Shown here: piece by piece, positions 16,250-28,929 of the stretch | Position numbering within the stretch: the first letter of the stretch is position 1 | Layout: each line of letters begins with the position of its first letter | Assembly (NCBI RefSeq): GCF_015500095.1 | Contig: NZ_CP062983.1 | Span: 4,774,001-4,838,000, forward strand | Source: Phototrophicus methaneseepsis | Lineage (GTDB): Bacteria; Chloroflexota; Anaerolineae; Aggregatilineales; Phototrophicaceae | Reading direction: 5' to 3' | DNA: 64,000 nt | The notes under the pieces: generated by a model | Told to the model about the DNA's origin: nothing | The model's input: the letters and a program-made list of their open reading frames with translations, nothing else | Database searches by the model: none | Translations under genes and position numbers: made by a program

Positions 16250-17494
16250 ATGGAGCGAACGATGAGAAACATAATTTTGACCGTAGCATATATAGTTTTG
16301 AACATATGCTTGTTATCTACACCTTCTAAGGCTCAACAGGGCACAACTTCCAAGGTGGACGATATTGCATATAGCACCGACGGTAAGCGAATTGCCATTG
16401 CTGATGCACCATCAATCTGTGGCTTAGACCAAAGCGAGTACAGAGTAATCGTGGTTGATGCTCAAACACTTTCGCCTGTAACCACCCTTTTGGGACATAG
16501 TTGTGCAATATCTGATCTCGCGTGGAGTCCAGATGGAACTGTTATTGTATCTGGAGGAACCGAAGGTATAGCTATTGTGTGGGATGTAAGTACAGGGATT
16601 CAAGTTAGTAGTTCTGAGCTGGTTGACTACGGTATAGGAGACTTAACTTGGAATCCAGACAGTACATTATATATCGGTATAACAGGGGGGAATGCGTATG
16701 TATTCGATTCGACTAGTGGACAAATAATCGATACTCATACTGGAAATACCAGTATATCTGCTATCAGCTGGGGATCGAATAATGTCGTTGCTTACGGGGA
16801 TATATATGGTCAGATTCGGTTGTGGAACTATCTCACCAGTCAAGAAATAATCACAATACCACAACATAATAGTCACGTAAGACTTATTGAATGGAATCGC
16901 CAGTCTACTCAGTTTGCCAGTGTTGATAGAGATGAGGTCGTCAACATTTGGGACTCAACAGGGAATTTCATTCGCTCGTTTCAATTAGATACATATGTAA
17001 CAGACCTTGTTTGGAACCCTGATGGGAGTCAAATCATCATTGGCAAAATTAATGATGGTGCTGAGATTCGGGATGTTGCCACTGGTCAGAAATTGGTAGA
17101 TGTCGTTGCAGATCAACCTCTAACGGCTATTGCATGGAGCCCTGATGGAAACCAAATTGTCTATGGTTTTCGCCCCTCACAAGATGACTTAATCGAGGTT
17201 GTTGAAGTAAGTACACTCTTTCCTACACGTCCAATAGCCGATGCAGGTGCGGATATTACCATTTTGGCTAACCCTAATGGTACAGCCAATGTTATATTAG
17301 ATGGTTCTGACAGTACTGATTCTGATGGCGCAATTGTTAGCTACGAGTGGTCTGAAAGCAGCAAACTTCTTGGTACAGGCATCAGTCAAACGGTAACGTT
17401 ACCTATAGGTACACATACAATTCACCTAGAAGTAACGGATGATAGTTCGCAAACGGATATGGATACAATTATCGTCACTGTTGAGGAACTATAG
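16250..17494 (+). CDS. Secreted WD40-PKD protein (group B, first)
   Basis: 414 aa from the ATG at 16250; 16262 is an alternative. Signal segment IILTVAYIVLNICLLSTPSKAQ. Seven blades: DIAYSTDGKRIAIAD, LGHSCAISDLAWSPDGTVIVSGGTEGIAIVWD, LTWNPDSTLYIGI, ISWGSNNVVAYGDIYGQIRLWN, IEWNRQSTQFASVD, VWNPDGSQIIIGK and AWSPDGNQIVYG. The first-blade cysteines (SICG and HSC) are kept. The PKD-like domain is a different version from group A (ADAGADITILANPNGTANV, GISQTVTLPIGTH, VTDDSSQTD). With the next two genes it forms a subgroup having one blade plan and nearly the same PKD domain. Confidence 0.85.
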   Translation: MERTMRNIILTVAYIVLNICLLSTPSKAQQGTTSKVDDIAYSTDGKRIAIADAPSICGLDQSEYRVIVVDAQTLSPVTTLLGHSCAISDLAWSPDGTVIVSGGTEGIAIVWDVSTGIQVSSSELVDYGIGDLTWNPDSTLYIGITGGNAYVFDSTSGQIIDTHTGNTSISAISWGSNNVVAYGDIYGQIRLWNYLTSQEIITIPQHNSHVRLIEWNRQSTQFASVDRDEVVNIWDSTGNFIRSFQLDTYVTDLVWNPDGSQIIIGKINDGAEIRDVATGQKLVDVVADQPLTAIAWSPDGNQIVYGFRPSQDDLIEVVEVSTLFPTRPIADAGADITILANPNGTANVILDGSDSTDSDGAIVSYEWSESSKLLGTGISQTVTLPIGTHTIHLEVTDDSSQTDMDTIIVTVEEL

Positions 17495-17503
17495 AATCTA
17501 ATC

Positions 17504-17560
17504 ATCTCAGTGCTCACCTTATCCCCATACCAAACGAGTCTGGCAAGTCAGCAACGCGAG
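17504..17560 (+). repeat. RVWQVSN-domain remnant (copy f)
   Basis: CATCTCAGTGCTCACC through ACGAGTCTGGCAAGTCAGCA, after the stop of the 16250 gene. The rest of the 327-base gap to 17822 has no gene. A fragment near 17,600-17,690 reads ERLGIEPSAVDEWYLQVGHL before a stop, similar in part to the fragment at 11,940. Confidence 0.7.
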
Positions 17561-17821
17561 GATTCAGCACAGTTCGGCTGGAGCTCCATGGCCCACTCAT
17601 GAAAGACTTGGTATTGAACCAAGTGCTGTAGATGAGTGGTATCTACAAGTTGGACATCTGAATGATGATAATTTTTTGATTTTCAAGTTCCTGATATAGC
17701 TAGTATTCCCCCTACCCTAACTACAAGCTTAGAATTGGAACTCTATAACTTATATAGCGAAACACCTTTTGAATATCTTACTTGTATGCAAGTAAATGGC
17801 ATAAACTGTAAATAATAAGTC

Positions 17822-19072
17822 ATGGAGAATAAAGTGATCAAAGATATCCTATCTATAATCATAGTAGTTATAATGTGCAAAATAATTTCAATTAATAATA
17901 TCGCTGAGGCGCAGCTTGATACTGTGCCAATAATAAAGGATATCACTTATAGTCCTGATGGATCATTTATAGCTATTGTAAGTGCTCCTTCTTTCTGTGG
18001 AATCGATGAAAATAACTACCGCATAACTGTGGTCGAGGCACAATCGCTATATCCTGTAGCTATATTTACCGGATATCATTGCCCAATATTGGATGCAGCT
18101 TGGAATCCAAATGGTGAAAAACTTGTTGGGGGTGGAAGTGAAGGCATATCAATCGTATGGGATGTGAATACTGCGAACCAAGTTAGTATCTCGAATCACG
18201 TTGCGCCGGGGAGAAGCGATCATGCTTGGAACCCAGAAGGTACATTGTACATTGGCAGAACAGGCGGCAATGCATACATATTCAATGCAAACACAGGAGA
18301 AATAGTTTATACGCTTACTGGTAATACAAGCATCTCTGCCATTGATTGGGGAACTAATAATGTAATTGCATATGGCGATATTTATGGACAGATTCGCCTA
18401 TTGAATTACTCTACCCAACAAGAAATTAGCGTTGTACAACATCATGCTAATCATATTGGGCTTGTTAAGTGGAATCGACAAGCGACAAAGTATGCTAGTG
18501 CTGACAGGGATAATCAAGTCATTATCTGGGATGCAAATGGAGAAGTGATTCAGTCCTTTAGTTTTGAAACATACGTAACAGAACTTGTTTGGAACCCTGA
18601 CGGAACCCAAATAATCATTGGTAAAATAGATGAGGGTGCAGAAATTTGGGATGTTACGACGGGCCAAAAGTTAGTAGATGTAATCATAAACCAACCTATA
18701 ACTGCTCTCGATTGGAGTCCTGATGGAAATCAAATTGCTTATGCTGTTTTTCCGGTCCTGGAGAATTTAATCGAGGTTGTTGAAGTCAGTACACTCTTTC
18801 CCACACGTCCCATAGCGGATGCAGGTGCGGATATTACCATTTTGGCCAACCCTAGTGGCACAGCCAATGTTCTGTTAGATGCCTCTGGCAGTACGGACTC
18901 GGATGGCACGATTCTTAGCTATCAGTGGTTTGAAAGCAGCAATCTTATGGGTACAAGCATCAGTCAAATGGTAACGTTACCTATAGGTACACATACAATT
19001 CAGCTAGAAGTAACAGATGATAGTTCGCAAACGGATACGGATACAATTATCGTCACTGTTGAGGAGCTATAG
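17822..19072 (+). CDS. Secreted WD40-PKD protein (group B, second)
   Basis: 416 aa, signal segment ILSIIIVVIMCKIISI with cleavage near AEAQ. The blade order follows the preceding gene: DITYSPDGSFIAIVS, AWNPNGEKLVGGGSEGISIVWD, AWNPEGTLYIGRTGGNAYIF, IDWGTNNVIAYGDIYGQIRLLN, VKWNRQATKYASAD, VWNPDGTQIIIGK and DWSPDGNQIAYA. The PKD-like domain is ADAGADITILANPSGTANV to VTDDSSQTD. The C-terminal half is much closer to its two neighbours than the N-terminal half, as expected when gene conversion homogenises the 3' ends. Exported propeller of unknown ligand. Confidence 0.85.
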   Translation: MENKVIKDILSIIIVVIMCKIISINNIAEAQLDTVPIIKDITYSPDGSFIAIVSAPSFCGIDENNYRITVVEAQSLYPVAIFTGYHCPILDAAWNPNGEKLVGGGSEGISIVWDVNTANQVSISNHVAPGRSDHAWNPEGTLYIGRTGGNAYIFNANTGEIVYTLTGNTSISAIDWGTNNVIAYGDIYGQIRLLNYSTQQEISVVQHHANHIGLVKWNRQATKYASADRDNQVIIWDANGEVIQSFSFETYVTELVWNPDGTQIIIGKIDEGAEIWDVTTGQKLVDVIINQPITALDWSPDGNQIAYAVFPVLENLIEVVEVSTLFPTRPIADAGADITILANPSGTANVLLDASGSTDSDGTILSYQWFESSNLMGTSISQMVTLPIGTHTIQLEVTDDSSQTDTDTIIVTVEEL

Positions 19073-19087
19073 AATCTCATCTTATCG

Positions 19088-19140
19088 TCTCAGTGCTCGC
19101 CTTATCCCGATACAAAACGAGCCTGGCAAGTCAACAACGC
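19088..19140 (+). repeat. RVWQVSN-domain remnant (copy g)
   Basis: GTCTCAGTGCTCGCC through ACGAGCCTGGCAAGTCAACA; the last and shortest copy in the array. It is followed by a short direct repeat of CTCACCTTC around 19,170-19,190. Confidence 0.7.
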
Positions 19141-19269
19141 TTTACCTTGGGCTTTGAAGCTAGATATCCTCACCTTCCTCACCTTCCTCACCGAGGCCAA
19201 TTATGCCCCTTATGATTTTCCCAACGGCTCAGTAGCCACTTGCATCTAATAAGACGAGAGCTGATTGAC

Positions 19270-20547
19270 ATGAATCGATTTAAGCTAACCATTACACTAT
19301 ACATTGCTATCTATTGTATTTTTACATCTACAGTTTCCATCGCCCAGCTAGAACCACACCATTACATAGGCGATATATCCTATAGCCCCGATGGAACGAG
19401 AATAGCATTAACCGATACTTTAGATCGTTGTGGCTACGGTGAAGAAAATTATCTCACGATGATAGTTGATTCACATACATTATCAACCATTTCAACATTT
19501 GTTGGACACTCGTGTCTTCTTACAGATGTTGCTTGGAGTTCTAACGAGCAATATCTTGTAAGTGGTGGGTATGAAGGCATCTCGATTGTTTGGAATACAG
19601 TAACTGAGCAACAAGTAAGCATTGCTAACGATCGTATGGGACCTGGTACTCATTCCCTAAGTTGGAATCCTACTGACACGTTATATGTTGCATGGGCCGC
19701 AGGTGGCAATGGTTATATTTTCAATCCAGAAACGGGTATGGAAGTTGATCGGTTACCTGTAGAAGTTGTTAAAGACTATATAGAATCTATAGACTGGGGC
19801 ATAAATAATGTCATTGCCTATGGTAATAGACAGGGGTTGCTGCGTTTATGGGATTATGACACACGCCAAGAGTTAGCGTTTCCCGGTGCTCACAATGCAC
19901 CAATTAGAGTAGTTAAGTGGAGTCCTCAGGCAACGTTATTTGCCAGTGCTGATGAAAATGGGATTGTCAAAATTTGGGATTCCAGCGCCAACATCATTAA
20001 CACATTACAATTTGGCACACGTGTATCACATCTTGTTTGGAGCCCTGATGGGAATCAAATCATAATAGTTAAAGAGCGTGAAGGTGCCGAGATCTGGGAC
20101 ATTACCACAGGCCAGAAACTTGTGAATGTTATTACGGATCAGATTATCACAGCTATAGATTGGAGTCCTGATGGAAATCAAATTGCATATGCTGTTTTTC
20201 CGGTCCTGGAGAATTTAATCGAGGTTGTTGAAGTCAGCACACTTTTTCCAACACATCCAATAGCGGATGCAGGTGCGGATATTACCATTTTGGCCAACCC
20301 TAGTGGCACAGCCAATGTTCTGTTAGATGCCTCTGGCAGTACGGACTCGGATGGTACGATTGTTAGCTACGAGTGGTCTGAAAGCAGCAAACTTCTTGGT
20401 ACAGGCATCAGTCAAACGGTAACGTTACCTGTAGGTATACATACAATTCATCTAGAAGTAACGGATGATAGTTCGCAAACGGATACGGATATAATTATCG
20501 TCACTGTTGAAGAAGAGAGAGCTTCATCCCCCATTGATCAACCCTAG
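19270..20547 (+). CDS. Secreted WD40-PKD protein (group B, third; end of array)
   Basis: About 425 aa from the ATG at 19270 (MNRFKLTITLYIAIYC), chosen because it begins the signal peptide; the TTG at 19240 is less likely. Blades: DISYSPDGTRIALTD, VGHSCLLTDVAWSSNEQYLVSGGYEGISIVWN, SWNPTDTLYVAW, IDWGINNVIAYGNRQGLLRLWD, VKWSPQATLFASADENGIVKIWD, VWSPDGNQIIIV and DWSPDGNQIAYA. The PKD-like domain is almost the same as in the two genes before. It ends EERASSPIDQP. Its TAG (20545-20547) overlaps, on the other strand, the stop of the displaced DUF1684 gene end. That fits an old convergent pair of host genes. Confidence 0.85.
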   Translation: MNRFKLTITLYIAIYCIFTSTVSIAQLEPHHYIGDISYSPDGTRIALTDTLDRCGYGEENYLTMIVDSHTLSTISTFVGHSCLLTDVAWSSNEQYLVSGGYEGISIVWNTVTEQQVSIANDRMGPGTHSLSWNPTDTLYVAWAAGGNGYIFNPETGMEVDRLPVEVVKDYIESIDWGINNVIAYGNRQGLLRLWDYDTRQELAFPGAHNAPIRVVKWSPQATLFASADENGIVKIWDSSANIINTLQFGTRVSHLVWSPDGNQIIIVKEREGAEIWDITTGQKLVNVITDQIITAIDWSPDGNQIAYAVFPVLENLIEVVEVSTLFPTHPIADAGADITILANPSGTANVLLDASGSTDSDGTIVSYEWSESSKLLGTGISQTVTLPVGIHTIHLEVTDDSSQTDTDIIIVTVEEERASSPIDQP

Positions 20548-20630
20548 AGCCACTCTCCAACAGGCAGTTTCTCCCCTGCGAGGATAGCAACTGACAATCG
20601 GTTTTCCGCAGGTGTGATTGGGCAATTCCA
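20544..20630 (-). pseudogene. Displaced original 3' end of the DUF1684 gene
   Basis: Reading leftward from 20630, the minus strand codes for 28 residues (WNCPITPAENRLSVAIL, then AGEKLPVGEWL) and a TAG. Twenty-four of them match the C-terminal part of the DUF1684 protein whose 5' part lies 7 kb away at 27726-28196. Nothing upstream of 20630 resembles that gene. The break falls exactly at the shared 8-bp core. It is therefore the former gene end, cut off when the element integrated. Over 80 aligned bases I count 21 differences from the end now in use. Confidence 0.85.
20623..20630. other. Left attachment core (attL)
   Basis: CAATTCCA, shared with 27718-27725. Left of it the sequence aligns with the DUF1684 3' end; right of it the alignment stops. 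On the minus strand it forms part of the codons for WNC. Confidence 0.75.
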
Positions 20631-20731
20631 ATTATCGTTCTAGAAGAGGTCACTTCAAGTCAGTAATCTTAGCGCATGAAGGCATCAATTTAGACATCTT
20701 TAGCATCAAAAGCTAGAGATATTCATATCGG

Positions 20732-20771
20732 CACGATGGAAAAATTTTTTATAGTTACATTTTCCATCGTG
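20732..20771. terminator. 12-bp perfect hairpin, probable terminator of the herA operon
   Basis: CACGATGGAAAA (20732-20743) pairs with TTTTCCATCGTG (20760-20771) around a 16-nt A/T-rich loop. It lies 33 bp beyond the stop of the herA-like gene on the minus strand and could stop transcription in both directions. A role as a recombinase accessory site is an alternative. Confidence 0.6.
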
Positions 20772-20804
20772 TCAGTCACTAAATTTACAGAATAAGATAA
20801 TAAT

Positions 20805-22685
20805 CTATTCAACTTCATCAAAATCCGAAGAAGGCCGTACAAGTTCCCTAAATTGTAAGGTCATGCTCTTAGGTTTATAGTTATCTGCTAATTCTTTTAT
20901 GTGAACTTTTATCGGGCGCTGACTTGCTACACCACTAAATATACAGGTTCCAGTTGGCAAAGTAGGAATAGATTCTTCTGTCATTCTGTCGATATATGAA
21001 ACGGCATTAGAGATCATAGCTAAATCATGACGATTAATAAGGCGGTGAATGAAGTAGTTATGAGCCTGAGAGGTGATTGTAGGAGATATATCACTAGGGC
21101 GTTGACTGGAAATAGTAACAAAAACACCAAATTTTCGCCCTTCTTTTATAATCTCTTCAAAGGTTTCAAGGCGATAATCTTTCCAGGTTTCAGACTCTCT
21201 AAATGATTCTGTAGAAAGAATATTATGAGCTTCATCAATTATAATATTTAATGACTTTTGTCCGTCACATTTCAATTTATGATCCGAATAAATTTTCTTA
21301 CAAAGTAGAAGTGGTAATGTCTTTTTCATTACCAAATTCACGTGGTTAAGATTAACCACAATGAAATTGCTCTCGCCCCAAATACTTTCATTAGGTGTAG
21401 TATTAAATAACTTTAGAATATCAGCCTTTCTACTTTGTAACCTGTGTATTACAGGAACTATATGGTCCGCATAAACCCGATCAGCAAGTACATCATCGAT
21501 TAGTTTCACGTATAAAAATTTGACAAAATTATCTAAAGAATCATCCCCAAATACATGCTTATCAATTCGCTTATATATTTCAGTCTTCATGACATTAGAG
21601 TCATCACTAAAGTATTTTTTATCTTCGGAAACAGTATGCCCTATAAGATAATAGTAACCATTTTTATAATGCCACTTAATATCTTTATCGATATCAATTA
21701 TTTCACCGTCATCATCATAATCTGGCGGTAGGATTTGCCTCATAGAATCAATGAGTTGTCTAGCAGAACTATATTCTGACATAGTCAATATCTGTTTAAC
21801 TTGATTTCTAAGAATGCCTTTAAAATAATTCTCTATATCTAGTGTTGCATGATGTGCATCCCTGTAACGTGTAAGAGCCCGACGTAAAAAGGGCTTTTGA
21901 GTTTTCTCTGTTGCATCTGAAAGAATTGAGAGCATTTCCAACTCAAGCAAACCATTCTCAGGGAAAGGGAATTTATCACCACCACTGTTAAGGGTAGATA
22001 ATTTATAGACTTTCTTATCTTTGGTTATGCAATTTTTATCGATATACTCGCCGTTGAAATCAAACACAATAAATCTAGTATTTTCTTCGTATTCTTTTTT
22101 ATTTGCATCTTGAAGGCACGCCACTAAAGATTGATATAGAGTAGCAAGTGTATTCGATTTACCACTACCAGTATTACCAAAGATCGCGATGTGTCCATTG
22201 AATAAAGTATCAACTGGAAAATCTATGTCGAAATCATCATCAGTTTTAGCAATATTTATTTTTAGATCACCTTCTCTCACTAGGTTATGAATGATATCGA
22301 TTTTATCTTTTGTAATGATATATGCTTCATTACCTATTAGAGGAAGTTCCTTAGTTCCAGCAACAAATTTTCGATCTTGTCCTATATACCCAATGAGAGA
22401 CACTGTCAAATATCTTCGATTTTTATCAACTTCATCATAACTATTGGATTCACGACCAATAGGTTCTTCTATTTTTTCTCCCTCAACTTTACCGACAATG
22501 ATCAAAAAACCTTTGCGAATTTCAATGTAACTATCTACGGCCACATTCCTAAGAATTTCTCCATCAAGAAAAATATCTGACAGATTTTTATTTTTATCGA
22601 CCTTCACAACTATTCGTCGACCAATAACTTCAAATACTTCACCTACCCGCAAAATAGCGTCTCTAGTTAGTTTATCAATAGTCAT
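20805..22685 (-). CDS. HerA-family ATPase of a SIR2-HerA defence system
   Basis: 626 aa. The N-terminal 135 residues are beta-rich, as expected for a HAS-barrel (VGEVFEVIGRRIVVKV). The ATPase core has Walker A GNTGSGKSN at about 170-178, Walker B IIIDEAH at about 481-487 and the motif SSQRPSDIS at about 526-534, typical of HerA/FtsK-like hexameric translocases. The sir2-like gene lies 22 bp upstream on the same strand, the arrangement known for SIR2-HerA antiphage systems, where the two proteins form a large complex that degrades NAD and/or DNA during infection. The insert between the Walker motifs is rich in acidic residues. The length suits HerA. The function is inferred from the family and the pairing. 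Confidence 0.88.
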   Translation of the reverse strand: MTIDKLTRDAILRVGEVFEVIGRRIVVKVDKNKNLSDIFLDGEILRNVAVDSYIEIRKGFLIIVGKVEGEKIEEPIGRESNSYDEVDKNRRYLTVSLIGYIGQDRKFVAGTKELPLIGNEAYIITKDKIDIIHNLVREGDLKINIAKTDDDFDIDFPVDTLFNGHIAIFGNTGSGKSNTLATLYQSLVACLQDANKKEYEENTRFIVFDFNGEYIDKNCITKDKKVYKLSTLNSGGDKFPFPENGLLELEMLSILSDATEKTQKPFLRRALTRYRDAHHATLDIENYFKGILRNQVKQILTMSEYSSARQLIDSMRQILPPDYDDDGEIIDIDKDIKWHYKNGYYYLIGHTVSEDKKYFSDDSNVMKTEIYKRIDKHVFGDDSLDNFVKFLYVKLIDDVLADRVYADHIVPVIHRLQSRKADILKLFNTTPNESIWGESNFIVVNLNHVNLVMKKTLPLLLCKKIYSDHKLKCDGQKSLNIIIDEAHNILSTESFRESETWKDYRLETFEEIIKEGRKFGVFVTISSQRPSDISPTITSQAHNYFIHRLINRHDLAMISNAVSYIDRMTEESIPTLPTGTCIFSGVASQRPIKVHIKELADNYKPKSMTLQFRELVRPSSDFDEVE

Positions 22686-22707
22686 TTGGCCGATCCTTTG
22701 GGGAAAA

Positions 22708-23760
22708 TCAACTAAAAATCAAGTTGAGAGTATTATCAAATACGAGGAAAGTATTTTTCTCAGTTTTTGAAGGAGCGATAATTACAACATTATTGTTTTC
22801 AGCAAATTTCTCTTTAAAATCAGTGACATCATCATTGGAGTAGGCAAAAATCACGAGTCGCAAAGAAGGATTCTTCAAAGCACGTTTCGTAATATCAAAT
22901 ATATGTTCATCGGCAAAAGAAAAGCCAAATACAATTAATAACGAATTCTCTTTGTCCAATTCATTGGCATATATTCGAAGGAGGTCATAATGTATCCTAT
23001 CCATTAATGTTTGTTCAAACTTGCTTTTCTGCGGCAAGATGAGTGCAAAGTTCTTTAAAAATTCACAAACCTCACCATCATTAGTATTGTCAGACAATAA
23101 GTTACGGACGTTACTACTAAACAAGATGGTTCCTTCATCTTGCTTCGTCCACGATAAAGAGCCATGAATTTTGATGAGATTTACTACTGGTATTTCGACT
23201 TTATAGCTATATAGATTTCCCTGATTATAGGTGGTATTGAAAAAGTTGCTGGGTGAAAATTTATACTGCTGTTTAAGATTTGGAGTGCGATTGAAACCAT
23301 CGTTTACTAATAAACTTGGCAAAGAATCTGAGGCTTGCTCAACAAATAGATCATAATTGGTCGTAAATAAGTTTATTTGCTTTGAAAGTAAATCAGTCTT
23401 TCGCTCGGTCATGATTAGTTCAAGTGTCTCAAGTAGATTTCTGTAATTCTGTAAAACTATTTTATCTTCATGACTAAGGTCATCCTCTACCAACTCTATA
23501 AGGTCGTTTGCACAACCTTGCAATTTATTTATAAAATCAGCTTTCTTACGATCCGCTTCATCTATTTTATTTTGCTGATATAGAATTTGTATTTCCTCCT
23601 CAATATTTCCAGCAACTTCGACAGCTGGAAACGATGCTCCTGATCCGATCAGAAAGTTAATCGTTGCAGATTGTAAAGATTTCGCCAGCATGGATTTAAA
23701 ATATTCACACTCTTTATCATCAGCATCTTTGGGAGGAATATATTTAATAGTAGGAGGCAT
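22708..23760 (-). CDS. SIR2-like NAD hydrolase of a SIR2-HerA defence system
   Basis: 350 aa. SIR2-family signatures: nucleotide-binding GSGAS (about 39-43), TTNYD (about 132-136, with the conserved Asn) and IKIHGSLSW (about 196-203, with the catalytic-type His). The C-terminal part has IVFGFSFADEH, common in bacterial SIR2_2 proteins. All key residues expected for NAD cleavage are present. It is the first gene of a two-gene operon with the HerA-like ATPase. In known systems of this type the SIR2 subunit depletes NAD when phage is sensed. The start ATG at 23760 follows a leader with an 8-bp inverted repeat. It sits inside a mobile element, as defence genes often do. Confidence 0.87.
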   Translation of the reverse strand: MPPTIKYIPPKDADDKECEYFKSMLAKSLQSATINFLIGSGASFPAVEVAGNIEEEIQILYQQNKIDEADRKKADFINKLQGCANDLIELVEDDLSHEDKIVLQNYRNLLETLELIMTERKTDLLSKQINLFTTNYDLFVEQASDSLPSLLVNDGFNRTPNLKQQYKFSPSNFFNTTYNQGNLYSYKVEIPVVNLIKIHGSLSWTKQDEGTILFSSNVRNLLSDNTNDGEVCEFLKNFALILPQKSKFEQTLMDRIHYDLLRIYANELDKENSLLIVFGFSFADEHIFDITKRALKNPSLRLVIFAYSNDDVTDFKEKFAENNNVVIIAPSKTEKNTFLVFDNTLNLIFS

Positions 23761-23770
23761 TTATTTTTCC

Positions 23771-23795
23771 TTATGAGATTACAAAACTCTCATAA
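23771..23795. promoter_or_regulatory. Inverted repeat in the leader of the sir2-herA operon
   Basis: TTATGAGA (23771-23778) and TCTCATAA (23788-23795) form an 8-bp perfect dyad with a 9-nt spacer, 10-35 bp before the sir2 start. A TATAAT lies upstream on the minus strand (23815-23820). The dyad could be an operator, perhaps for the XRE protein of the element, or an mRNA hairpin limiting translation. Confidence 0.45.
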
Positions 23796-23966
23796 TTGTA
23801 TCACATTAATTAATATTATAAATTTGAGTTGATACTCGCTTTGATTTTTGCTAGGACGCAAAATACTATATTATGGGACAGGAATATATTCATACAAATG
23901 CCCTTCTTTGGTGAACCCTTCGCCCACGTATCAGCAGACTACCAACCAGCCGACGCGAAGCGCTTG

Positions 23967-24090
23967 CCCTTGATGGCCTGTTTGCTTTCCGGCCTAAACT
24001 ACATAATCGAGGGGTGCAGCTACCTTACCCGCCTTCTTCGGAGCCACCCCTCGCACTTCTTCCACAGGCCGGAAAGCTGGCAGTCAAGGG
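23967..24090. other. Nested stem-loop of about 125 nt
   Basis: Three colinear stems enclose each other: CCCTTGA (23967-23973) with TCAAGGG (24084-24090); GCTTTCCGGCC (23984-23994) with GGCCGGAAAGC (24067-24077); CGAGGGGTG (24008-24016) with CACCCCTCG (24045-24053). It lies in the 341-base gap between sir2 and the XRE gene, which otherwise holds no convincing gene. The stretch is GC-richer than its surroundings. It may be a structured RNA, a replication origin hairpin for the Rep-like protein, or a recombination site. Confidence 0.5.
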
Positions 24091-24101
24091 GCGGCGAATC
24101 G

Positions 24102-24500
24102 CTAAACCTCCATGTCAACAAGCGCTTTTATTTGTGCAATAGCTACCCGCTTCTGAGCGACCGGTAACTTCCGAAACAGCATAAGTAGTTCGCTATCTTC
24201 TGGCGTTGATTCCTCAGCGTACACATGTTGTCTATATTTTTCAGGGATGAAGTATAGAAGCGGCTTATTGAGTTTCCGGCTGATATATGTAAGCGTCTCA
24301 ATATCAGGATACATTTTGCCGTTTTCAATCTCAGAGATCGAAGCTCGCCGTTTATATACAGCATTAGCTAATTCGGTTTGACTTAGTCCAGCTTCCTCAC
24401 GTGCCTGCCGAATAGCATTACCAATTCCTCTAGATAAAGGGTTTGGCAACCTGCCGCGTTGATCAACGTGCTCGTAGATTAATTCCCACATTATAAACAC
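24102..24500 (-). CDS. XRE-family transcriptional regulator
   Basis: 132 aa from a GTG at 24500; an ATG at 24491 is equally plausible. A helix-turn-helix of the Cro/C1 type lies at about residues 26-82: IGNAIRQAREEAGLSQTELA, then RRASISEIENGKMYPDIETL. A short C-terminal helical tail (LLMLFRKLPVAQKRVAIAQI) may dimerise. It is transcribed away from the Rep-like gene, and the rep promoter overlaps its start, so it probably controls both itself and replication. Such regulators keep integrated elements quiet. Confidence 0.85.
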   Translation of the reverse strand: MFIMWELIYEHVDQRGRLPNPLSRGIGNAIRQAREEAGLSQTELANAVYKRRASISEIENGKMYPDIETLTYISRKLNKPLLYFIPEKYRQHVYAEESTPEDSELLMLFRKLPVAQKRVAIAQIKALVDMEV

Positions 24501-24503
24501 TCA

Positions 24504-24532
24504 TTGACACATTTGATGGATAAACGTACAAT
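24504..24532 (+). promoter_or_regulatory. Promoter of the Rep-like gene
   Basis: TTGACA (24504-24509), a 17-nt spacer and TACAAT (24527-24532), close to the sigma-70 consensus. It abuts the start of the divergent XRE gene, an ideal place for repression by that protein. Confidence 0.7.
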
Positions 24533-24564
24533 AATGATGGATTATCGGACAGTGTAATTCTAGG

Positions 24565-24665
24565 GCGTGGCGCCTCTTTTTGGTGGCGCCACGCTCAAAC
24601 AATCATTGGAGTTTAGCTTGAAAAAACATGATTTCGACAACCCCCGTACTGTATCACGGGGGTTG
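24565..24665 (+). other. Two perfect 10-bp hairpins at the start of the Rep-like gene
   Basis: GCGTGGCGCC (24565-24574) pairs with GGCGCCACGC (24585-24594). CAACCCCCGT (24638-24647) pairs with ACGGGGGTTG (24656-24665) around ACTGTATC. Rolling-circle Rep proteins of this kind nick their origin at hairpins, often in or just before their own gene. This pair is a candidate origin; control of rep translation is another possibility. Confidence 0.45.
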
Positions 24666-25829
24666 AAAGTCCAACCCCTACACATCGGATTAGATAGTCT
24701 CTATTTGCTGATAGAGTATCCACATATCGATCTTTTCCATTATTGGAAGTCAACAACTTCTCAAGCAAGTTCGCTAAGGTTGCGTAATGGTATTGTACAC
24801 GAGGATTTTGTGATTCGTGGCGGAGTTTTAGGCTATAAACTCACAATTTGGGATGGTGATGCAAGACTACTTATCACAGATCGGGTGGAGGAAACACTTA
24901 TAGCAACTCATCATGCTGGCGAAGGCATGGGAGCAATGCTCCAACTCGGCCCAAAGTGGCTAATGAAGCATGGTAATTTCAGTTCAAGCAACGAGCTGAT
25001 AACAAACATTCATGTCCAGCTAAAGAAATTCAAGATTTCTTCACCTCAAGACTACCCTATACGCATCAACAGGATTGACATAGCACTAGATGTATTCGGG
25101 CTAGCTGTCAAAGATTTCATCATTGATGAATGGCGGCATGGTTGGGTCGGGCGAGCATCCGGTAAACATTTCTATGATGAGAACGAAGCTGGTAATCTAT
25201 CAGGCTTTTCAGTTGGATCTTCAGAAGGTGCTGTTCGCTTTAAAGTCTATGACAAAGTATTGGAAAGCAAGAAGAAGGAGACATTCGGCTTTTGGGCTTC
25301 TGTTTGGAACTGGGAAATTCTCAAAGACAATGCACAAGTTACCAATGAATTGAACATTGCACGCTTTGAGTGGAGCATAAAACCTTTCTCAGCCAAATTT
25401 ACAAGCTTCCAGTATCTATCAGACTACTCATTTGATGGTCTAAAACAAATCATGAACTATGTCGTAACACAATGGGGACGACTTTGCATTATATCTGAGA
25501 ACCCCAAGCGCTCACGCTGGGAAACACATCCCTTATGGACAATCATTCGACGAATGATGATCGATGCATGGGACATAGATCACGTTGGCAATGCAAAACG
25601 TGAATATCATTTTACCCCTGACCTCACACAAAAATACACTAATTCACTCACAGGCTGGATAGCGGGAATGCGAGCCAGGGCTGGGCTTGAGCTCGGTTAT
25701 GATCAGCCTGCTGACCTGGATGAAGCGCTAAAACTCGCCGAAAAGCACAATCGCTCCATTGACGAAAAAGCTAAAGAAAAATTTGCAATTCTACTCAGAC
25801 TATCAGGAAAGAGACCATCGCAAAAATGA
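24567..25829 (+). CDS. Replication-initiation-factor-like protein (Rep_trans type)
   Basis: 420 aa from the GTG at 24567. Because two strong hairpins cover the first 33 codons, the true start may be further in, for instance the TTG at 24663 just before VQPLHIGLDSLYLLIEYP. Features of rolling-circle initiators of the Rep_trans/RstA kind: IRINRIDIALDV (about 173-184), VRFKVYDKVLESKKK (about 225-239) and IARFEWSIKPF (about 268-278). In that family the protein nicks its origin through a tyrosine. I cannot assign the tyrosine with certainty; the one in KVYDK is a candidate. Linked by ATGA overlap to a 51-aa ORF. It implies that the excised element can replicate or transfer. Confidence 0.65.
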   Translation: MAPLFGGATLKQSLEFSLKKHDFDNPRTVSRGLKVQPLHIGLDSLYLLIEYPHIDLFHYWKSTTSQASSLRLRNGIVHEDFVIRGGVLGYKLTIWDGDARLLITDRVEETLIATHHAGEGMGAMLQLGPKWLMKHGNFSSSNELITNIHVQLKKFKISSPQDYPIRINRIDIALDVFGLAVKDFIIDEWRHGWVGRASGKHFYDENEAGNLSGFSVGSSEGAVRFKVYDKVLESKKKETFGFWASVWNWEILKDNAQVTNELNIARFEWSIKPFSAKFTSFQYLSDYSFDGLKQIMNYVVTQWGRLCIISENPKRSRWETHPLWTIIRRMMIDAWDIDHVGNAKREYHFTPDLTQKYTNSLTGWIAGMRARAGLELGYDQPADLDEALKLAEKHNRSIDEKAKEKFAILLRLSGKRPSQK

Positions 25830-25981
25830 AAAACAAAAGTTTGGAAAAACAAAATCTTCTCAACTTACAGTCAATTCATATTACCAAGAACATATTTGTC
25901 GAAGGTAATCTCCGTGCAGGCATTCGATGGATTGAGGCAATCAATACTATTTACAAAATCTTCCAACAAAATCATTCATAA
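25826..25981 (+). CDS. 51-aa protein coupled to the Rep-like gene
   Basis: Starts at an ATG that overlaps the rep stop (ATGA), the usual sign of translational coupling, and ends 24 bp before the recombinase start. It begins MKNKSLEKQNLLNLQSIHIT and contains RAGIRWIEAINTIYKIFQ, basic and probably helical. No known motif is seen. From its place between rep and the integrase it could be a small excision or copy-control protein, but this is only positional inference. Confidence 0.55.
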   Translation: MKNKSLEKQNLLNLQSIHITKNIFVEGNLRAGIRWIEAINTIYKIFQQNHS

Positions 25982-26005
25982 GTATTCGTAAGGAAGTCAA
26001 TCAAA

Positions 26006-27802
26006 GTGCGTGAGTTAATCATTTCCGATAAAGAAGATATTGCCCAGATCATTGATACTCTTGAGAGTATGCCAATGACAAGAAAATATGGTAAAGCGGT
26101 TGTTGCCCGTATACCTTATGCAAAAGAAGTCGATTATCCAGCAGCGATCTATATTCGGGTTTCAAGTGCTAAACAAGCCACAAAAGGCAAAGGCTCTCTC
26201 CCAGAACAATTCGATACTGTGTGGAACGCCACAATTAATAAAGGTGGCCAAATCGTTGCTGTATACGCTGACGTATGTACGGCTGCAAATCGAGATAGAC
26301 AAGCATTTAACATACTCCTTAAGGACCTTCGCGACGGTCAATTTACTATGCTAGGTTGCTGGCATTCAAGTCGATTAGTGAGGACTCAACTTGCAGCAGG
26401 AGAACTCGAAGAAGCCGTTGAAAAACTCAAAACAAAAGTTCATATGTTTGCTGTCGCTGATACATTGGATGCCGATATTTTAGGCGTACTTGCATGGGCG
26501 GGACGATGGGAACGTAAGGCTTTTCGCGAGCGTTCGTTAATGGGTAGACAAGCTGCCGCGACTGAAAATCGAACACCTAGCGGTAAACCGCCTTTTTGGA
26601 TTAAAACAATCAAAGATGAAAGTAAAAAGATTGTCGGGTACGAACTTAAGCCTGTTGCAAAATGGATCAAGTGGGCTGCAGAAGCCTATGTATCTGGCAT
26701 TGGAAGTACAGAAATTGTAAGAAGAATGAATCAAGAAGGGGTTCCCAGAGCAACAGGTCGAACAAAATATGGATGGACACGACAGTATCTAAATCAGGTT
26801 CTCAAATATACAGCCCTTAAGGGTAAATGGGGGCCGTTTTGGGATGTGTATATTGACGTCCCTCCCCTGGTAGATGAAGCTACATGGGACGCAATTCAAG
26901 AGAAAATACAAGAAAATGCAACATATACAGGGCGTCCTGCCAAGCATTTTGTAGCGCTACGTGGATTAATGTGGTGTAGTGTATGTGGTCAAAAAATGGG
27001 AACTCACGTGCGCGATTGGGATTATGTCTATCACACGTTAAAAGATGGCACACGTCAACGCTATCGAATTAAAAAAGAAAAACTGAAAATAAGACATGTA
27101 TGTAATGGCCAACAACATTATGGTAAAAGCTGTAGAAGGCCCGAATACATACGTGATGCCATCATCTTCGATAGAGTCTGGGACAGACTATCAGAAGCCT
27201 TATCCAACCATGATATTTTGATTGCAGGTTTACAATCACAAATCAAAGCTCTTGAAAAGCAAGATGAATTAGAAGAGCTTTTGTCAATTAACTCACGTCT
27301 CGAAAAACTACATCAACGTGAACTTTCCTATGCGGAACAGCGTGCTGAGGGCACGCTTTCAAAGGCAATCCAGAAGGAACTAGTATTGCGATTGCAGCAA
27401 GAACAAAAAGAATTACTTGAAGCTCAATCACAATTACAAAGCAAAGCAGAACAGATAACACAAGCGAGAAACCAGCTTGCTTCAGCCGAAGTTCTGATCG
27501 ATCAATTACCAGATATTTTGCCTCAGATTCAGCGTAGCGACAAAGAAAAACTCATCATGGCACTGATTTCTCGCATTGATGTTGATGCAGATAATCAGGT
27601 TACAATCACTCTGTGCCTTCATCCTGATGTGCTTGCCAATCTACCCACTCACCAACAGGGAGCTTCTCCCCAGCAGGAATCGCAATCTTCAGACGATTCT
27701 CAGCAGGAGTTATCGGACAATTCCATTGACGAGATGGCTGCCCTGCAACACGAAGTGAATGCGGCTCGTTATACGCGCAATACGGATTATAAGCCTGATT
27801 AA
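26006..27802 (+). CDS. Large serine recombinase (integrase of the element)
   Basis: 598 aa from a GTG with AAGGAAG 9 nt upstream. Resolvase domain with catalytic serine in AAIYIRVSS (Ser-53 probable), then HSSRLVRTQLAAGELEEA. It is followed by the recombinase domain (about 190-320; GSTEIVRRMNQEGVPRATGR, WTRQYLNQVL), a zinc-ribbon-like part starting at WCSVCGQKM, and a long coiled coil (about 400-520). The length suits large serine integrases, which join attP and attB without host factors. The reading frame crosses the right att core: the last 25 or so residues (from SIDEMAALQH) are coded by host DNA antisense to the DUF1684 gene. In the excised circle the frame would instead run into 20631 onward and end at 20716. 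Confidence 0.92.
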   Translation: MRELIISDKEDIAQIIDTLESMPMTRKYGKAVVARIPYAKEVDYPAAIYIRVSSAKQATKGKGSLPEQFDTVWNATINKGGQIVAVYADVCTAANRDRQAFNILLKDLRDGQFTMLGCWHSSRLVRTQLAAGELEEAVEKLKTKVHMFAVADTLDADILGVLAWAGRWERKAFRERSLMGRQAAATENRTPSGKPPFWIKTIKDESKKIVGYELKPVAKWIKWAAEAYVSGIGSTEIVRRMNQEGVPRATGRTKYGWTRQYLNQVLKYTALKGKWGPFWDVYIDVPPLVDEATWDAIQEKIQENATYTGRPAKHFVALRGLMWCSVCGQKMGTHVRDWDYVYHTLKDGTRQRYRIKKEKLKIRHVCNGQQHYGKSCRRPEYIRDAIIFDRVWDRLSEALSNHDILIAGLQSQIKALEKQDELEELLSINSRLEKLHQRELSYAEQRAEGTLSKAIQKELVLRLQQEQKELLEAQSQLQSKAEQITQARNQLASAEVLIDQLPDILPQIQRSDKEKLIMALISRIDVDADNQVTITLCLHPDVLANLPTHQQGASPQQESQSSDDSQQELSDNSIDEMAALQHEVNAARYTRNTDYKPD

Positions 27803-28196
27803 AATCGATATGGAATGTCGTCTCATCGATCTGTACGGGCTCTAGATAACGACCGGCAGGATATGTTTCAGTGCCGACGTTGCTATCAACAAAGGGCAGG
27901 AAGATATAATCAGCCGCGCGATAAATCGTCAGCCGCGCCTGTTCGCCAGCGACATCAAATGTAAACTCGCCATAGCGCATAAACCAGCGAGCATCACCCT
28001 TGGTATGTGGGATCTGCACGTTATCTTTCTTCGCAAAAGGCGTCACCGTAACGACCATATCCCAATTTGGCTGCCCAATATAATAACTCAAACCTGTGAA
28101 AGCGGCTTTCTGAGCCTCTGTCAGAGGAGAATGCTCGCTCTCTTTGAAGAATTTATCTTTTTGTGCACGTAGTTGTATCAGTCTTTGGGTATCCAT
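27606..28196 (-). CDS. DUF1684 family protein, target gene of the element
   Basis: 196 aa. Typical DUF1684 features: LRAQKDKFFKESEHSPL near the N-terminus, YIGQPNWDMVV, and in the C-terminal half IDFNQAYNPYCAYNE followed by WNCPITPAENRLKIAIPAGEK. The family has no settled biochemical role. The coding sequence up to codon 157 or so is host DNA. From the att core at 27725 leftward the gene end comes from the integrated element and differs from the original end kept at 20544-20630 (11 extra residues, VDWQAHQDEGTE replacing a terminal L). The 3' end overlaps the recombinase gene by 197 bp in the opposite direction. A LOG-like gene lies 2 bp upstream on the same strand. Confidence 0.85.
   Translation of the reverse strand: MDTQRLIQLRAQKDKFFKESEHSPLTEAQKAAFTGLSYYIGQPNWDMVVTVTPFAKKDNVQIPHTKGDARWFMRYGEFTFDVAGEQARLTIYRAADYIFLPFVDSNVGTETYPAGRYLEPVQIDETTFHIDFNQAYNPYCAYNEPHSLRVAGQPSRQWNCPITPAENRLKIAIPAGEKLPVGEWVDWQAHQDEGTE
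27718..27725. other. Right attachment core (attR)
   Basis: CAATTCCA, matching the left core. It lies inside both the recombinase gene and the antiparallel DUF1684 gene. To its left is the element-supplied gene end, to its right the host 5' part of the gene. Confidence 0.75.
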
Positions 28197-28833: not shown

Positions 28834-28841
28834 GCACACTG

Positions 28842-28929
28842 CGGAAAGGGTGGGATTCGAACCCACGGTAGGGCCAGGCCCTACACCTGTTTTCGAGACA
28901 GGCCCATTCAACCACTCTGGCACCTTTCC
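28842..28929 (-). tRNA. tRNA-Ser (anticodon CGA)
   Basis: 88 nt on the minus strand. The acceptor stem GGAAAGG/CCTTTCC is perfect. The anticodon stem CCTGT/ACAGG encloses the loop CTCGAAA, giving anticodon CGA (codon UCG). A long variable arm (TAGGGCC/GGCCCTA), typical of class II tRNAs, and a GTTCGAATC T-loop are present. The CCA end is not encoded. It is followed by a terminator hairpin. Confidence 0.95.

Follow-up and report, generated by a model that had tools for sequence, protein, structure and literature searches.

In staphylococcal and enterococcal cassette chromosome elements (SCC/ECC), islands that vary in content are integrated by large serine recombinases into the 3′ region of a conserved protein gene, rlmH (PMC6222049). 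It has been reported that tRNA genes are reconstituted after integration (PMC8371274), and gene restoration by integrating elements is described for tRNA genes and some protein genes (PMC8371274, PMC4701971). In the accounts consulted, the elements that keep a gene end are integrative and conjugative elements with tyrosine integrases and repeats of 12-54 bp, whereas serine-integrase triplets disrupt genes and have repeats of 2-8 bp. In SSV-type (suicidal) archaeal integrases, the attachment site lies inside the integrase gene (PMC8371274). In this study, we analyzed a window of 64,000 nucleotides from Phototrophicus methaneseepsis (NZ_CP062983.1, positions 4,774,001 to 4,838,000), part of a single-contig genome of 5,631,885 bases (labelled G000; the same-genus genome used for comparison is labelled G001). 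The window holds element A, which is flanked by the two parts of a split DUF1684 gene. Very probably, a serine-recombinase element inserted in this gene and swapped its end for a diverged antisense copy. The features on which this reading is based are as follows.

20544-20630, minus strand: displaced original 3′ end of the DUF1684 gene, 28 codons plus stop
20623-20630: left core CAATTCCA, which joins the old DUF1684 end to the element
20631-27717: integrated element A, about 7.1 kb, between the two cores
26006-27802, plus strand: large serine recombinase, 598 amino acids as integrated (Pfam Resolvase, Recombinase, Zn_ribbon_recom)
27606-27641, minus strand: stretch by which the repaired DUF1684 frame is lengthened, with its new stop; antisense to the recombinase gene
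27642-27725, minus strand: element-borne substitute for the DUF1684 end, lying antisense in the 3′ end of the recombinase gene
27718-27725: right core CAATTCCA, the second junction of element A
27726-27802, plus strand: host DNA from which the integrated recombinase gene takes its final 25 codons, the first of which straddles the core, and its stop
27726-28196, minus strand: host DUF1684 gene body (Pfam DUF1684 4e-36 for the joined protein)

When translated, the minus strand at 20544-20630 gave WNCPITPAENRLSVAILAGEKLPVGEWL followed by a stop. On the element side, this frame meets in-frame stops shortly before 20630 (minus-strand translation). From the gene body at 27726-28196, the reading frame continues into WNCPITPAENRLKIAIPAGEKLPVGEWV and 11 further residues before the stop at 27606-27608. 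The substitute end is longer than the native ends because its frame continues into the antisense of the recombinase gene. Both junctions have CAATTCCA in common, and the exact crossover inside these 8 bp is not fixed because their identity is partly shared coding sequence (codons W, N, C). Compared over 84 bases, the old end and the substitute end show 23 differences, 21 of them among the first 80 bases, and 24 of 28 residues are identical; the next best ungapped match of the old end in the six frames of the window had 9 identities. A preliminary description of this DNA had reported the 28 displaced residues with their stop, the body joined in frame to another 3′ end, the common sequence at both junctions, and the 21 differences in 80 bp with 24 of 28 residues kept, and all of this was reproduced here.

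We examined how these differences are distributed. On DUF1684 codon positions 1, 2 and 3, the 23 differences fell in 4, 2 and 17 cases (binomial P 8e-5 for at least 17 at third positions). This bias means that each end was in use in a DUF1684 protein as the two drew apart. Read in the frame of the recombinase, on the opposite strand, the same 17 differences land on codon position 2, and thus the recombinase reading of 27642-27725 was not what was conserved. The same counts bear on the alternative that the attachment repeats were once identical and that the displaced end then decayed by neutral drift, which would spread changes over the codon positions. One residue of the old end is unusual, L where P, R, M, K or E stands in the other ends compared, and could be early decay; however, the old end retains its frame and stop and matches the G001 end at 25 of 28 residues. 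Decay by drift is therefore very unlikely. The proposal of the preliminary description that the element carries its own diverged gene end was supported by the third-position bias and the in-frame repair.

Compared with G001, the old end showed 20 base differences (1, 3 and 16 by codon position) and the substitute end 23 (5, 3 and 15), with 23 of 28 residues kept in the latter. In residues (25 against 23), the old end is nearer to G001, as expected for the resident end, but the difference is small. When 29 other DUF1684 ends were compared in bases, 19 were nearer to the old end and 9 to the substitute end, with 1 tied. The highest base match to the substitute end among them was that of G001 (61/84). 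The substitute end was most likely taken from a DUF1684 gene of another lineage or of an earlier host.

The DUF1684 site was then compared in other genomes. Matches were found in 34 of the 61 genomes searched, the window's own included, and among the matches listed an isolated DUF1684 tail fragment (E <= 0.001) was present only in the window's own genome. In G001, DUF1684 is uninterrupted (174 codons, with the short end GEWLD) and lies directly after a LOG-type gene that is identical to the window's LOG-type gene at 107 of 176 aligned residues. The empty site suggested earlier as a check was thus found in part: an uninterrupted DUF1684 gene follows the same type of upstream gene, and a junction with the WD40 gene was not seen there. 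The overlap in the window between the stop of the old end (20544-20546, minus) and that of the last WD40 gene (20545-20547, plus) was confirmed, and the WD40-DUF1684 order before insertion, which had been drawn from it, did not recur in G001. Because the downstream DNA of G001 differs, the overlapping stops in the window are the one basis for that order. No recombinase match at E <= 1e-3 was found in 29 DUF1684 loci (mostly with 1.5-kb flanks) from the 33 other genomes with a match, using 8 serine and 4 tyrosine recombinase queries. Two outcomes had been named that would contradict the proposal, namely an empty-site relative with a separate fragment and gene, and an unvaried arrangement in distant genomes; neither was seen. 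A loop, EPHSLRVAGQPSRQ, adjoins the crossover in the DUF1684 body at 27726-27770, where G001 and the other family ends compared have about two residues. By appearance, a similar loop occurs in L019, a locus from another family.

A local duplication of the DUF1684 tail, with unrelated genes later inserted or shuffled between the copies and no unit element, would also leave the tail present twice, and the adjoining WD40 genes do have near-identical stretches in common. However, the recombinase gene crosses one junction, and the GC content of the interval (0.388) differs from that of the right flank (0.515) and the left flank (0.424). Elsewhere in the genome there is also a sibling element, built alike and bearing a terminal repeat of its own. 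A local duplication is therefore extremely improbable. The near-identical stretches, found in the WD40/PKD genes at 16250-20547 (93-95% over 114-115 bases), are in themselves a sign of recent duplication or conversion. A tRNA was also considered as the insertion target and rejected; the sole structured RNA found was a tRNA at ~28841-28929.

In the recombinase, the Resolvase, Recombinase and zinc ribbon domains all scored above the Pfam cut-offs in one protein, which identifies it as a large serine recombinase. Its PHROG integrase match (5.7e-58) ends at residue 543, and no match in another genome of the class extends beyond residue 554. Residue 546 ends at base 27641, and the DUF1684-homologous stretch starts at 27642. 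Therefore, the recognisable recombinase gives way to the captured gene end within a few codons. Past this seam, the recombinase frame runs without a stop through 84 bases of antisense DUF1684 and 77 bases of host DNA. By simple stop frequency, an open frame of about 53 codons would occur by chance in ~8% of cases, and so is alone no proof of function. In the opposite direction, the DUF1684 frame as repaired covers 36 bases antisense to the recombinase gene. Reconstructed as a circle, the element would give the recombinase a different tail of 28 residues, in place of the 25 of the integrated form.

The locus resembles SCC/ECC in that the NCBIfam matches of its recombinase were led by CcrB and CcrC, far below cut-off. 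With 64.3 bits for CcrB against a cut-off of 900, and with DUF1684 rather than rlmH as the target, element A falls outside SCC/ECC. Unlike those islands, it has 28 codons replaced by a diverged copy, a gene end antisense within the recombinase gene, and one recombinase gene instead of a ccrAB pair. SSV-type integrases are tyrosine enzymes whose gene is broken by integration, whereas the enzyme of element A is a serine recombinase with whole domains, of which the tail alone changes; neither its known domains nor its homologue matches reach as far as the core, which falls at residue 574. Among the papers listed in the literature searches, none was evidently about a serine integrase with its own 3′ end antisense to a diverged replacement end, which is weak evidence of absence. 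Insertion that restores a gene is known. What look new are the way in which integrase and target gene overlap at each other's 3′ ends and the family to which this element belongs.

We propose that element A inserts by means of its own large serine recombinase, at a site in the DUF1684 coding sequence that lies 28 codons ahead of the stop. The attachment site bears a functional diverged copy of these codons, such that insertion swaps the gene end and the gene is not broken. This copy lies antisense in the recombinase 3′ end; there the recombinase frame has no stop and reads via the copy and the core into the DNA beyond, and the repaired DUF1684 frame passes its old end into recombinase antisense. 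The excised circle is probably replicated by a Rep_trans-like protein whose expression an XRE repressor controls; a hairpin before the Rep gene is perhaps the starting point. Insertion and repair stand about as firmly as sequence data allow: the boundaries, the genes contained, the swapped gene end, the selection on both ends, the overlapping frames and a sibling of like build can be read from the sequence. Excision, replication, repression, defence activity and the source of the substitute end are inferred. From left to right, the element holds HerA (-), SIR2 (-), XRE (-), Rep_trans-like (+), a small open reading frame (ORF) and the serine recombinase (+). The remaining features are listed below, together with what was found in the sibling, element B.

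20805-22685, minus strand: HerA-type ATPase, 626 amino acids, cargo (PADLOC HerA 8e-196; Pfam DUF87; PDB HerA chains)
22708-23760, minus strand: SIR2-like protein, 350 amino acids, cargo (PADLOC SIR2 1.8e-112; Pfam SIR2_2; alignment to 8yhx)
24102-24500, minus strand: XRE-type repressor, 132 amino acids (Pfam HTH_3; 61% identical to the XRE of element B)
24504-24532, plus strand: promoter-like TTGACA-17-TACAAT, hexamers and spacing identical in element B
24563-24596, plus strand: hairpin with a T-rich loop before Rep, z -5.1 (counterpart in the same place in element B, z -3.2)
24567-25829, plus strand: Rep_trans-like protein (Pfam Rep_trans E 1.9e-4; 54% identical copy in element B)
25826-25981, plus strand: 51-amino-acid ORF that overlaps Rep by ATGA and precedes the recombinase gene (element B has an ORF in this slot, no evident similarity)

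NADase defence systems include SIR2-HerA, and N, Y, D and H are catalytic pocket residues of SIR2 (PMC11263360). The HerA-type ATPase aligned along its length with a solved HerA chain (best PDB E 2e-32). The SIR2-like protein aligned to 8yhx, a solved SIR2 of such a pair (best E 1e-12), with N-Y-D and H kept. The adjacent genes and these pocket residues place the pair among SIR2-HerA systems; it is matched by the PADLOC models but diverged from the solved pairs. The cargo probably stops phage infection by NAD+ loss. Among the element A proteins tested, only HerA passed a coupling-protein model, and barely (TrwB_AAD_bind 21.5 vs 20.5), which its HerA match explains. Between SIR2 and XRE, at 23829-24167, only mechanical ORFs were seen.

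The XRE-Rep intergenic stretches of A and B (some Rep-side bases included) aligned better than 300 of 300 single-base shuffles. A promoter scan of this region in A gave 24 promoter-like sites against 24.1 in shuffles; the weight of the promoter therefore lies in its identity between A and B. An inverted repeat of at least 9 pairs was present before Rep in 7 of 13 regions, comprising A, B and 5 of the 11 distant neighbourhoods included (of 12; L107 was left out), compared to 2.5 to 18.5% of background windows from the same loci. The hairpin is possibly a replication origin or an attenuator. By eye, the real start of the Rep_trans-like protein is probably the TTG at 24618, which would put the hairpin in the leader. 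This protein could act as a relaxase. In the genome search, Rep_trans scored 18.8 (A) and 19.2 (B), and neither protein was assigned to the Rep_trans initiators. The 51-amino-acid ORF is a candidate directionality factor.

Apart from one other match in its own genome, in element B, Rep matched nothing in the class sample, which covers 395 further genomes.

G000 ~1,041,323-1,048,943 (L075:7324-14944), mirror image of A: element B, with recombinase, small ORF, Rep, XRE and four other genes

The recombinases of A and B are 26% identical, compared to the Rep and XRE values given above. Element B ends in a 15-bp repeat, CTCCTCAGGTCCACC. In the matching place beside ParA in G001, a sequence resembling the right inner end of B and a recombinase 3′ end meet at the core, which has one mismatch; this natural end-to-end junction supports the ends assigned to element B. 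The recombinase frame of the G001 remnant reads through its core. Compared with this remnant, the recombinase of element B has a frameshift and an early stop, and the continuing frame is open through B's core. From these frames, the recombinase gene ends in the attachment site in A and, as far as the remnant tells, in B's line. The joined inner ends of element B gave symmetries of 13/19 (P 0.002) and 13/24 (P 0.022), which are weak, being the best of several sites, centres and arms. At L118:7938-8520 in G001, a decayed B-type remnant with two cores may reflect former tandem insertions.

The sibling also bears on the alternative that the interval is what remains of a phage or conjugative element, defective and no longer mobile. 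Among the element A proteins tested, no structural, packaging or transfer gene was recognised, and the frameshift that cuts the recombinase of element B short would fit such a remnant. However, the core genes of element A are open, and its small size and layout recur in B, so the compactness looks original. A defective remnant is therefore unlikely.

Within the phylum, distant Rep relatives were found in 13 other genomes of 400 at E <= 0.01. In 12 distant Rep neighbourhoods, no ORF matched serine recombinase or XRE references at E <= 0.01, and all four integrases tested near distant Rep genes were of the tyrosine type. No Rep relatives were found in the sets plasmids, phages, genome_contigs and viral_contigs. 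The recombinase had only 21-28% matches in plasmids (12 records), and only 4 of 60 relatives had weak matches. In element B, the four-gene cargo at L075:11242-14816 stands in the slot of A's SIR2-HerA and is a candidate unknown defence cassette. Its last gene had a PIN match below cut-off, three of its proteins had no Pfam match to E 1, none of the four had a PADLOC match, and one of them, compared with the PDB, had no convincing match.

Several results weigh against the insertion and end swap that we favour, or against parts of it. Element A is known from one copy only, and the downstream neighbour of DUF1684 in G001 is a beta-galactosidase gene (Pfam), not the WD40 gene. The 8-bp core is present at both ends of element A, and inverted symmetry around it was not above chance. 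The best-scoring recombinase match in 396 class genomes was only 28% identical, and no recombinase relatives at E <= 1e-3 were found in viral_contigs and genome_contigs, in scans seeded from six exact peptides. Because there were no recombinase relatives there and Rep had none in the sets named above, the spread of element A could not be mapped. Homology by eye between the C-terminal part of the A recombinase and the B-type remnant of G001 was rejected, since 480 of 1000 shuffles scored as high. Because this similarity is not significant, the place where the recombinase once ended is read from the ends of profile and homologue matches. The NCBIfam anti-phage SIR2 and HerA models scored far below their cut-offs, the Rep_trans match was below the curated Pfam cut-off (21.6 bits vs 29.6), and the predicted Rep structure was unusable (mean pLDDT, a per-residue confidence score, 33).

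The mutual 3′ overlap could also be a built-in sensor of the integration state, although we regard this as quite improbable. If so, DUF1684 transcription would run antisense into the recombinase gene in the integrated state, and the recombinase would bear a host-encoded tail. Both would change at once in the circle, and the host gene would silence and retune the integrase only while the element is seated. The element B frame, which continues past the frameshift and is open through the core, would then make the sensor a shared design.

Insertion with replacement of the gene end would make element A a precisely bounded serine-integrase element that keeps its seat in a protein gene, with an integrase gene doubling, in antisense, as the repair patch. 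Elements A and B combine one replication-control core with distant integrases and different cargo on the same chromosome, and such swapping becomes testable. As a highly diverged recombinase with predicted attB/attP, the enzyme is a candidate tool.

Beside element B, at L075:2016-7048, there is a ParA-ParB-DUF3987-primase block. Among 51 family genomes, 47 had ParA matches, near or distant. The genome studied here carries four full-length ParA copies with identities of at least 71% and two broken ones, so there seems to be a second multi-copy unit, mobile or plasmid-like.

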